From a virus, in IMG/VR virus record IMGVR_UViG_3300025127_000192, positions 1-28,442 of that record: 28,442 nt of DNA. One strand, written 5' to 3'. Made by a program: the position numbers and the translations under genes. The notes under the pieces were generated by a model. That model was not told the origin of the DNA, ran no database searches, and saw nothing but the letters and a program-made list of their open reading frames with translations. Below are positions 3,126-10,870 of this stretch, piece by piece (the first letter of the stretch is position 1; every line of letters begins with the position of its first letter).

Positions 3126-3460
3126 GCAAGTTATTCGACTCGGAAATAGTTCAGAAAGAGATGGACGAAATGACCTCCACTTATATGGATCTCATGATGA
3201 AAGTTCCATACTTTGCTATGATGACTAGAGAGCAAAGAGAAGAGGTAATAGATGGTCTAGAACTACTAGTCGATAAACAAGAGACCCTATATAGTAGGGC
3301 ATACCTTATGAATGATGAGGACAGTGAACTTGTTAAACAAAACTTTAGAAATGCTGCCAAGGAGTTAGGTGTACCAGAAGAAATGGTAGGTCTACCTATT
3401 TTTAAAAAGGCGAGAAAGGTACTGCATGAGATGAGAGATAACCTTGACAATCTCTTATGA
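3122..3460 (+). CDS. DUF1825-like cyanobacterial-type protein
   Basis: 112-aa, acidic, apparently all-helical protein beginning MSKLFDSEIVQ, the typical opening of DUF1825 proteins that are near-universal in cyanobacteria (usually M-x-F-F-D-S-E-I-V-Q). Related genes occur in cyanophages, so transfer from a host is plausible. Function is unknown in both. It overlaps gp59 by four bases (ATGA). Its last codons contain the -35 and -10 elements of the gp32 promoter, so the 3' end of this gene is under double constraint. DUF1825 assignment rests on recognition of the N-terminus and length; a profile search would settle it. Confidence 0.75.
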   Translation: MSKLFDSEIVQKEMDEMTSTYMDLMMKVPYFAMMTREQREEVIDGLELLVDKQETLYSRAYLMNDEDSELVKQNFRNAAKELGVPEEMVGLPIFKKARKVLHEMRDNLDNLL

Positions 3461-7601: not shown

Positions 7602-8294
7602 ATGAAAATACGAGATATTAGAACACACGTAATAGGAAAGTATGGTATTGCTAATTCCAATAGGTATCAAATATCATTTATTCCTGGTAACGATCTTAGT
7701 GAGTGGTTAGAGTATTCACCATCAGCAACACCATTAGAATATGATAAACAGTGGAATACTAGTAGTAAAAAAGCACAGTTAGTCAGTTGGTTAGCAGATG
7801 ATGTACAATTACCAGGTTACAATGTTGCTACTGGAGATTTAAAAGGATATGTTCCTGGTATTAATATGAAGTATGCACATACTAAAACGTTTCAAGAATG
7901 TCAAATAAGTTTCATATTAGATAGAGAGCATACTCCATTTAAAATAATGCAGAGATGGGGTGAATATATCTTTCAACATCAAGATGAACCTAGTATATCA
8001 GGTATAAGGGGACGTGCAGCACCTGATTCTTTTATTAGAACTGCTTATTATGATGATTATACTGCAGATTTAATAGTAGATAAGATTGAAACTAAAGATA
8101 AGAACGGAATTGAAGTAGTATCTAGGTATAGGTTGGTTAATGCATTCCCATTTACGATATCTGCTATAACTTATGCAAATGGTCCTAATCAACCATTAAG
8201 GTTCATGGCTAACTTTCACTTTGAGTATATGAGAGAGATTGATAATATAGTAGACCCTGAGGAAGAGATACTTTTCACTAACACCACTATATAA
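7602..8294 (+). CDS. 54: gp54-like tail tube initiator / tube-fold protein
   Basis: 230-aa protein with the tail-tube fold pattern shared by gp19, gp48 and gp54: an early SRYQISF-like strand (NRYQISFIPGNDL), SWLADDVQLPGYNVATGDLK in the position of the tube beta-hairpin, CQISFILDREHTPFKIMQRW (helix after the second sheet), and the terminal VNAFPFTISAITYANGPNQ plus FMANFHFEYM typical of tube subunits. The length is smaller than T4 gp54 (320 aa). Since the gp48-like gene is the divergent neighbour, gp54 is the best call; a second tail-tube protein is the alternative. First gene behind the overlapping late promoters. Shape of the family is clear, exact paralogue less so. Confidence 0.72.
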   Translation: MKIRDIRTHVIGKYGIANSNRYQISFIPGNDLSEWLEYSPSATPLEYDKQWNTSSKKAQLVSWLADDVQLPGYNVATGDLKGYVPGINMKYAHTKTFQECQISFILDREHTPFKIMQRWGEYIFQHQDEPSISGIRGRAAPDSFIRTAYYDDYTADLIVDKIETKDKNGIEVVSRYRLVNAFPFTISAITYANGPNQPLRFMANFHFEYMREIDNIVDPEEEILFTNTTI

Positions 8295-8313
8295 TATACC
8301 TATATCATAACTT

Positions 8314-9015
8314 ATGGCATTACCTACATTAAGTACACCAACATATGAATTGACAGTACCCTCTACTAAGAAGAAAATAAAATATAGACCATTCTTGGTT
8401 AAGGAAGAGAAAGTTCTTCTATTAGCACTAGAATCTGAAGATGATAAAGAAATTGCAGATGCAATGAAAGGATTGATAAAGGCATGTGTCTTAACTAAAG
8501 GTATTGATCCTGATGAACTTGCTACATTTGATGTTGAATACATCTTTTTAAATATCAGAGGTAAATCTATTGGTGAGGATATTGATGTTAAAATGGTTTG
8601 CCCAGATGATGGGAAAACTGAAATAACTACAAAGATACCAATAGATAAAATTAAAGTTAGATTTACTAAAGGACATACTAATCAAATACAAATTAGTGAT
8701 GACCTTTGGGTTGAAATGAAATATCCAAATATTGATTCTCTTGCTATACAAGAGGAAACTGTTGAGGATACATTTAAATTAGTGTCTAAATCTATTAAAA
8801 AGATCTACAATGCAGAAGATGTGTGGGATTCATCTACTACAACAGAAGCTGAATTTATGACATTTATTGAATCAATGAATAGTAAGCAATTTGCTAAAAT
8901 TCAAGAGTTCTTTACTACCATGCCATCATTGAAGCATACCGTTAAAATAATAAACCCTACTACAAGAGTTAAAAGCGAATACACAATTGAGGGATTATCC
9001 AATTTTTTCATATAG
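8314..9015 (+). CDS. 26: gp26-like baseplate hub assembly protein / tail chaperone (zero-frame product)
   Basis: 233-aa member of the T4 gp26 baseplate family (T4_baseplate). N-terminus TYELTVPSTKKKIKYRPFLV followed by KEEKVLLLALES is the recognisable part; a VCPDDG segment sits near 91-96. In T4, gp26 and gp51 act in hub assembly. The last codons are TCC AAT TTT TTC ATA TAG. Within them T TTT TTC (9003-9009) is a canonical -1 slippery heptamer in the right phase, and the -1 frame stays open into the small ORF ending at 9203. A frameshifted product of 296 aa (232 plus 64) is therefore predicted. It lies directly before tape-measure-like genes, the usual position of tail assembly chaperones. 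No clear ribosome site at the start. Confidence 0.85.
   Translation: MALPTLSTPTYELTVPSTKKKIKYRPFLVKEEKVLLLALESEDDKEIADAMKGLIKACVLTKGIDPDELATFDVEYIFLNIRGKSIGEDIDVKMVCPDDGKTEITTKIPIDKIKVRFTKGHTNQIQISDDLWVEMKYPNIDSLAIQEETVEDTFKLVSKSIKKIYNAEDVWDSSTTTEAEFMTFIESMNSKQFAKIQEFFTTMPSLKHTVKIINPTTRVKSEYTIEGLSNFFI
9003..9009 (+). promoter_or_regulatory. Probable -1 programmed frameshift slippery site (U_UUU_UUC)
   Basis: TTTTTTC, read in the gp26 frame as T TTT TTC, fits the X_XXY_YYZ rule exactly and lies six bases before the gp26 stop codon (9013-9015). After a one-base backward slip the frame reads without a stop through 9200. No strong stem was found at the usual 5-9 base distance; a 7-base-pair hairpin exists further on (9062-9078). 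Confidence 0.65.
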
Positions 9016-9062
9016 CCCTCTTCCATACCTCACTTGAGACCCATATAAGAATCAATTTTGGT

Positions 9063-9203
9063 ATGATGCAACATCATAAGTATGGTTTTGATGATATCAA
9101 TAATATGCTTCCTTGGGAAAGGGACATATACGTTGAATTATTAAGACAACACTTGGAAGAGGAGAAAAAGAAAATCGAGGAACAAAGACAACGTAACCGA
9201 TGA
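9063..9203 (+). CDS. Small gp51-like ORF, likely made as a gp26 frameshift extension
   Basis: 46-aa ORF (MMQHHKYGFDDINNMLPWER, then a helical DIYVELLRQHLEEEKKKIEE). The D-I/L-NN-L-P-W/F-E-R-x-I-Y pattern is what I recall from short ORFs downstream of gp26 in T4-like marine phages and from the second half of tail chaperones. No ribosome site precedes the two adjacent ATGs, and the start lies inside a small hairpin (TATGATG CAA CATCATA). The frame is open upstream all the way to the gp26 slippery site, so it is more likely translated as the C-terminal part of a gp26 fusion, adding 18 linker residues before the first Met. The stop overlaps the next gene (ATGA). Independent initiation remains possible. 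Confidence 0.75.
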   Translation: MMQHHKYGFDDINNMLPWERDIYVELLRQHLEEEKKKIEEQRQRNR

Positions 9204-10870
9204 CTGCACTACTGTCAAAGTCAAAAGATGCATCAATGCGAGGTTTTAACAAACTAACGCAATCAATTTTTGATGTCAAGACGGCAGTATTTGGTAAGAA
9301 AATGCCAGAAAAGGTAAGTGAGGCAGAAGAACCATCAAATAATATAGTTGATTTTAAAGTATTAAATAAACCATCTACAAGATTAAATACTACTTCTATA
9401 CTTGTTAAGAAACAAGCATTATTGGAGTTTAAATATGAGCGAGAGAGATTTGGTGGATTAAAAATAGGTAAACCTTCTCCAGTACCTAAATTTGCTTCAT
9501 CTCCTGAGATGAGAAAAAGATTACAGTTAAAGAAAAGTAAAGATAGTGGTATAGATTTTAGTAGTTTTAAGAATATGATTGATGATCTTTTAAAAAAGAT
9601 CATGCAGAAGGTTTGGTTTAGAATAAAGAGAGGTATAAAGAGATTAATAGGTAAGAAGGGTATTAAATTTATACGAAGTATAAAGAAGATATTCAGAAAG
9701 ATTAAGATTAATTTTAAACTGTTCAGAAGATTTGCATTTAAACCTTTTAGACAGGCAAGAAGGTTTGTTCAAAGTTTACCAAAGAAAGCATGGAATTTGA
9801 CTAAGAACATAGTAAAGAAAGGTGCTATGTTTGTAAAGAAAAAGTTTGCAAAGACAGCTGGTAAGAAGTTAGTAAAGCAAAGTGGAAAGAGTATGGTAAA
9901 GAATGTGGGTAAGTTCTTACTAAAGAAACTTAAAGTATTTTATAAGGCAGGACCAGGTAAATTTATTACTAAAATTCCTATAATTGGTGCTCTAATTGAT
10001 TTTGCTATAAACTATTTCATTTTTAAAGAATCTTTAGGTGCATCAGTAATGAAGGCAGTTGGTGCAGGTCTTGGTACATGGTTAGGAGGTATAATAGGTA
10101 CCAGTGTTGGTACTGCTGCAGGTAGTGTAGTTCCAATTGTTGGTAACTTAATTGGTGCTACTGCTGGTGGTGCTATAGGTTCTCTTCTTGGTGGTATAGT
10201 TGGTGATATGTTAGGTGGATTTTTATACAAACTTATTACAGGTGGGGGTGCTAAAGAAGGTGCTAAAGTTAAGAAACCTCAGTTTATACTTGTTGGTGAG
10301 GGTGGAGAAGATGAATGGATTGTACCTAAGAGTAAATTAGGATGGTGGGTTGCACCATTAGTAGGAGATATTATTGAAGAATCAGTTGACGAAGAACAAC
10401 AAGAAAATGCAAAATTAAAGAGAGAAACTGATAAGATCTCTGAGGAGAGTGTTGAAACTGTAGAAGAAACAGAGAATAAAGAGGAATCTAAGACATGGAA
10501 ACCTGGTAAGATGTTTAATCCTGTCATTCAGTTAAGTAAGTTATTTGATAAGAAATCAACTAATGTCAAGGAAATGATGTCTATCATTCAATCACAAGAA
10601 CGTATTATTGAGCAATTAAAACCAGCTGATAAACCTGATTCTCCTATCACTCCAGTTAAAACTCCAGAACCTGCTAGAACTACTCTAAATAATATTGATC
10701 CAGATCCAGAACCTGATTATGCTGAAGTGATACCATCTTTATTACAATCAACAAATACTACAGTGACATCAGAAGGAGGACAAATGATACCATTCCCTAT
10801 ACCTGTAGGTGCTGATGGTGGATCTTCTGAAGCATATGCAGTATGGGGAAGAAAGGTAGTAGGTAACTAA
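9200..10870 (+). CDS. Tape-measure-like tail protein, first part
   Basis: 556-aa protein with four zones. An N-terminal 125 residues; a very basic amphipathic zone (about 130-245) packed with lysine and arginine, such as IKRGIKRLIGKKGIKFIRSI; a glycine-zipper hydrophobic zone (about 254-350), for example GLGTWLGGIIGTSVGTAAGS; and an acidic/proline-rich tail. Right after the hydrophobic zone comes LVGEGGEDEWIVPKSKL, matching the VGE-x-GPEAVIP-type motif common near the C-terminus of phage tape measure proteins. It follows the gp26 chaperone pair with an ATGA overlap, the expected tape-measure position. T4 gp29 is 590 aa, so the size fits. Role inferred: sets tail length and may enter the host membrane during DNA delivery. 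Confidence 0.72.
   Translation: MTALLSKSKDASMRGFNKLTQSIFDVKTAVFGKKMPEKVSEAEEPSNNIVDFKVLNKPSTRLNTTSILVKKQALLEFKYERERFGGLKIGKPSPVPKFASSPEMRKRLQLKKSKDSGIDFSSFKNMIDDLLKKIMQKVWFRIKRGIKRLIGKKGIKFIRSIKKIFRKIKINFKLFRRFAFKPFRQARRFVQSLPKKAWNLTKNIVKKGAMFVKKKFAKTAGKKLVKQSGKSMVKNVGKFLLKKLKVFYKAGPGKFITKIPIIGALIDFAINYFIFKESLGASVMKAVGAGLGTWLGGIIGTSVGTAAGSVVPIVGNLIGATAGGAIGSLLGGIVGDMLGGFLYKLITGGGAKEGAKVKKPQFILVGEGGEDEWIVPKSKLGWWVAPLVGDIIEESVDEEQQENAKLKRETDKISEESVETVEETENKEESKTWKPGKMFNPVIQLSKLFDKKSTNVKEMMSIIQSQERIIEQLKPADKPDSPITPVKTPEPARTTLNNIDPDPEPDYAEVIPSLLQSTNTTVTSEGGQMIPFPIPVGADGGSSEAYAVWGRKVVGN

Follow-up and report, generated by a model that had tools for sequence, protein, structure and literature searches.

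The window analysed here, from a marine T4-like phage, is a virus record of IMG/VR with a length of 28,442 bases, in which the gene order of tail tube, chaperone and tape measure is found at positions 7602-10870 as judged by family matches, with the features given in Table 1. The start of the tape-measure-like gene overlaps with the stop codon of the fusion that is considered below (ATGA). Counted from the ATG at 8314, the 3' end of gp26 is read as AAT (9001-9003), TTT (9004-9006), TTC (9007-9009), ATA (9010-9012) and TAG (9013-9015). The original prediction had put a T TTT TTC heptamer at 9003-9009 in the gp26 phase, which is right, and six bases before the gp26 stop, which is not, the actual gap being three bases (one codon).

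Table 1. Features at the gp26 locus of the window, in order of position.
Feature	Position	Strand	Evidence or remark
Tail-tube-family gene, upstream of gp26	7602..8294	+	PF23849 Phage_TTP_2, 5.5e-22; phrog_45 tail tube, 2e-29
gp26, 233 aa, putative short tail assembly chaperone form (TAC-N / G-like)	8314..9015	+	PF12322 T4_baseplate, 2e-67; phrog_150, 6e-70
GAGGGA, Shine-Dalgarno-like element, probable stimulator	8989..8994	+	Upstream, with 8 bases between it and the slip heptamer
Slippery heptamer T_TTT_TTC, gp26 phase	9003..9009	+	In-phase T_TTT_TTY in 49/52 clusters; wobbles of xxT and TTT 100% invariant
-1 frame C-terminal domain, 64 aa, gp51 family (putative TAC-C / T-like)	9009..9203	+	phrog_634, 6e-25, residues 2-63
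gp26 stop codon TAG	9013..9015	+	One sense codon past the slip heptamer
46-aa ORF called mechanically, the one commonly annotated as 'gp51'	9063..9203	+	Met at its own column in 12/49 clusters
Tape-measure-like gene	9200..10870	+	phrog_794 tail length tape measure, 1.3e-6; phrog_1047 tail associated lysin, 9e-15

Within the listed plus-strand genes of the window, an in-phase X_XXY_YYZ of any kind occurs at 27 of 6,889 codon positions, and T_TTT_TTC occurs once, at the position in Table 1. It is noted that U_UUU_UUC is a member of an efficient class of -1 motifs in E. coli (PMC4066793). The sequence xxT TTT TTC is in phase in all of the first 85 sequences compared. After adding loci from scans of viral contigs and chosen phage records, and with one locus (L104) omitted, the set comprises 127 placed loci, spanning Kyanoviridae, the pelagiphages HTVC008M and Mosig, Vibrio KVP40, Aeromonas CC2, Citrobacter Ci1, Delftia phiW-14, Stenotrophomonas Mendera and Ochrobactrum OC. 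An in-phase T_TTT_TT[C/T] lies near the gp26 stop in 124 of them (110 with TTC and 14 with TTT), and the spacing from heptamer to stop is 0-1 sense codons in 48 of the 49 heptamer-bearing clusters, where clusters of gp26 were cut at <92% amino-acid identity (n = 52) and neither the locus nor the cluster counts are phylogenetically independent.

When the codons of the 49 heptamer-bearing clusters are aligned, xxT and TTT are the only non-initiator columns of gp26 with an invariant wobble base, while the median wobble conservation in gp26 is 51% and the next best columns reach 88% and 86%, the 88% belonging to the TTC of the same heptamer. The residue encoded by xxT varies (N, S, D, A, G, T) although its wobble T is invariant. 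Note also that these 49 clusters were picked for having the heptamer, and that without this condition the figure is 49 of 52.

Upstream of the heptamer, at a distance of 7-9 nt, a Shine-Dalgarno-like GAGGG is conserved. Five codons before the slip TTT the ratio of GAG to GAA is 27:8, as compared with 307:847 elsewhere in the same gp26 genes (Fisher p 1e-9, uncorrected for relatedness). At a gap of 7 bases to the heptamer, pairing with the 3' end of 16S rRNA has a mean energy of -6.6 kcal/mol, versus +0.3 for control 8-mers, and 86% of the clusters reach -4 kcal/mol of anti-SD pairing, versus 16% of control stretches. The stimulation of frameshifting by SD-like elements is an established bacterial mechanism that acts on ribosomes (PMC4066793). 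Of the two kinds of stimulator looked for, an upstream SD-like element or a downstream structure, it is the SD-like element that is present; downstream of the heptamer no RNA structure is seen to be conserved, the single-sequence folds lying near the shuffled mean and the consensus fold being weak. A 7-bp hairpin at 9062-9078 over the ATG of the 46-aa ORF, which had been pointed out before, is present in the window as described, while its conservation does not hold: at least one pair is broken in 5 of 9 distinct close relatives, with compensation in none. The hairpin was thus rejected as a signal.

The phase of the heptamer and the SD-like element also bear on whether the -1 frame might be reached by slippage of the RNA polymerase on the T run, giving an extra T in the mRNA, rather than by the ribosome. 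Polymerase slippage needs no codon phase and usually needs longer runs. The site is indeed a T run, and the heptamer is all T in 14 of the 127 loci; but TTTTTTC is kept in codon phase in 110 of the 127, the run in the window has only 6 T, and the SD-like element is of a kind that acts on ribosomes (PMC4066793), so that we consider slippage by the polymerase extremely unlikely.

In the -1 frame, positions 9009-9200 are free of stop codons and the frame is closed by TGA at 9201-9203, with the translation HIALFHTSLETHIRINFGMMQHHKYGFDDINNMLPWERDIYVELLRQHLEEEKKKIEEQRQRNR. This is as had been predicted, with an 18-codon linker running into the 46-aa helical ORF, and in the structure model the C-terminal part is predicted to be helical with a pLDDT of 83.5. 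The peptide matches phrog_634, the family of the baseplate hub assembly catalyst (gp51). A further match is to phrog_150 at its C-terminal end (238-281 of 282), a family that gp26 matches at 5-232, and because both match phrog_150 in consecutive stretches, gp26 and the -1 peptide are colinear parts of one family. The predicted fusion of 296 aa consists of gp26 residues 1-232 followed by the 64-aa domain. The homology in the -1 frame begins at most one residue from the heptamer, not at the annotated start of the 46-aa ORF. The ungapped linkers are open in the -1 frame in 46 of 46 clusters, while the other two frames are open in 0 and 3. Between moderately similar pairs, the linker substitutions at the -1 codon positions 1/2/3 number 507/402/984; as read from the sequences, the -1 linker is under coding selection at the protein level. 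The alignment of the junction across relatives, proposed beforehand as a check, shows heptamer, phase and open -1 linker retained in nearly all of them.

Most public records annotate the downstream ORF differently, namely as a separate 46-aa gp51 with an ATG of its own (at 9063 or 9066), where translation would begin either directly or by re-initiation once gp26 has ended. Annotations of cyanophages use an internal start for such a gp51, and in KVP40, S-CRM01, phiW-14, Mendera and K474 the annotated gp51 starts at the gp26 stop, which fits with coupling. Against this, no start codon is universal: Met stands at the column of the 46-aa ORF start in the minority of clusters given in Table 1 and one column later in 31 of 49, and in Aeromonas CC2 the first 25 -1 codons include neither ATG nor GTG nor TTG. 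The linker 5' of the ATG shows conservation of its protein sequence, the wobble invariance of the heptamer would require another explanation, and in T4 gp51 is fused to a gp26-like part. The 46-aa ORF starts in the window are also weakly paired to the anti-SD, which is by itself poor evidence against a separate gp51 because many gp26 starts are weak as well. An independent gp51 start was therefore rejected for lack of a universal start, a separate gp51 is in our judgement very unlikely, and, on the sequences compared, the 46-aa ORF call is probably an annotation artefact.

Stop codons in the linker and synonymous changes destroying the heptamer, which had been named in advance as findings that would speak against a frameshift, are absent from nearly every relative, the exceptions being S-SCSM1, Ackermannviridae and Vibrio phage K474. 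In Ackermannviridae (L093 and L097, GAG ATT TTC) and in Vibrio phage K474 (L098, ACG CTT TTT GCG TAATG, with a stop-start overlap) the -1 gp51-like ORF is kept without the full heptamer, and both retain the tetramer U_UUY. In E. coli the U_UUY class ranks second among the tetramers (PMC4066793). In S-SCSM1 (L134, 880-910) the heptamer is kept, a stop is present in the -1 frame and gp51 lies in the +1 frame; the frame change apparently arises from an 11-nt insertion after the gp26 stop, and is either a real loss or a sequence error. The phage ACG-2014f, for which BLAST coordinates had suggested a different frame, proved on inspection to have the -1 frame. Separately, it is observed that in the omitted locus L104, at about 3245-3260, the slip run is one T shorter than in the near-identical L103, where the missing T is possibly a homopolymer sequencing error.

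We now turn to T4, in which gp51 has its PF12322 match at 1-201 and runs on, with no change of frame, into the phrog_634 part, while gp26 has the PF12322 match only. The gp51 of Aeromonas ZHF likewise has PF12322 and the C-terminal part in one frame, and T4 gp51 is aligned over the whole junction by a profile built from the predicted fusions. T4 is thus like the window in having a short PF12322 protein plus a protein with PF12322 and the C-terminal domain, and unlike it in that these are two separate, oppositely oriented genes, genes 26 and 51 lying on different strands. Since the two genes are separate, there is no frameshift between them; and since gp51 is a one-frame fusion and gp26 is PF12322 only, T4 and its near relatives appear to encode both forms as separate genes. 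Short and long forms sharing an N-terminal domain, predicted here to be of 233 and 296 aa, are the same two forms as T4 gp26 and gp51.

In E. coli dnaX a slippery heptamer is accompanied by an upstream Shine-Dalgarno-like stimulator, and the window is alike in this respect; unlike the window, dnaX also uses a downstream hairpin and its frameshift product is the shorter one. In phage lambda, gpGT is a minor -1 fusion that shares its N-terminal part with the short product gpG, the two acting on the tape measure protein and neither being present in the virion (PMC5009743). The window has the same arrangement of a short product and a minor -1 fusion with a common N-terminal part, which is here predicted from sequence, while the phage is contractile-tailed and the likeness is one of architecture. 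The slip heptamer of lambda gpG/gpGT also differs from T_TTT_TTC.

The AlphaFold2 model of gp26 is confident (mean pLDDT 86.5). Compared with the PDB, it gives a weak match to the HK97 tail assembly chaperone 2ob9 (E 2.2, probability 0.47); the phrog chaperone families are matched weakly (E 0.03-0.06), and the closest viral structure matches are other baseplate hub proteins. The search of solved structures with the gp26 sequence gave chance-level matches only, and 18 distant gp26 proteins were too divergent for a usable search profile. For T4, a list of hub assembly chaperones includes both gp26 and gp51 (PMC3004832). Since the fold matches are weak, the chaperone role thus rests on the architecture, the gene order, the work on T4 (PMC3004832) and the analogy with lambda, by which gp26 and the fusion would act as chaperones. 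That gp26 and the fusion are the G-like and GT-like products, as the original prediction had it, is supported by the invariant in-phase slip site, the selected -1 linker, the lack of a universal downstream start, the position between the tube and tape measure genes and T4 gp51 being a one-frame fusion. It is therefore very probable that a -1 ribosomal frameshift yields gp26 as TAC-N and the 296-aa fusion as TAC-NC, next to the tape measure gene.

We propose a model in which most ribosomes would read gp26 to the stop at 9013-9015, giving the 233-aa short chaperone, while a minority would slip back by one base on U_UUU_UUC, bypassing the stop and giving the 296-aa protein, the slippage in vivo and its rate being inferred. 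The pairing of GAGGG with 16S rRNA probably helps the slippage. By analogy with lambda gpG/gpGT, the part common to both forms would bind the tape measure protein, the extra (gp51) domain would recruit the tail tube subunits, and both chaperone forms would leave before the tail is completed. T4 would make the equivalent short and long forms from genes 26 and 51. A broader proposal is that frameshifting at U_UUU_UUC is driven throughout the T4-like phages by the SD-like element and not by a structure downstream, and that lineages have repeatedly left the system (T4 with separate short and fused genes, Ackermannviridae with the U_UUY tetramer, K474 with the stop-start overlap and S-SCSM1 with the shifted frame); this we put forward tentatively, giving it somewhat less than an even chance.

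A review of 2016 held T4 to be the exception among long-tailed phages, in which G-T frameshifting is otherwise conserved (PMC5009743). Vladimirov, Gautam & Davidson (Virology 2022) have since been credited with identifying the tail assembly chaperone genes of T4-like phages (PMC12846349, PMC10885494), with poly-T frameshift signals in T4-like TAC-N genes (PMC12846349) and with T4-like phages carrying a short gene and a longer fused gene (PMC10885494). The original prediction knew of no such description for T4-type gp26; going by these two citing papers, it was already in print. As far as that study is represented in them, it precedes the present analysis, so that the present observation, though real, is of a kind already known, the window being one more instance. 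The reading of T4 gp26 and gp51, long described as hub proteins, as tail assembly chaperones is supported here, the idea itself being already in print, and on this reading two genes replace frameshifting in the T4 lineage. The abstract of the 2022 study reportedly names T4 genes 26 and 51, in agreement with the present result. What is added is the conservation at the codon level and the SD-like element, which together make the stimulator directly testable; the SD-like stimulator and the lineages without the heptamer were possibly not reported before. The annotation is also corrected, in that 'gp51' of cyanophages is often a truncated ORF or is missed, the real product probably being the gp26-gp51 fusion.

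Finally, we note as an observation on a single record that in S-CAM4 (L083, 2504-2683) gp51 is unannotated though the -1 ORF is intact, while other records start gp51 internally.
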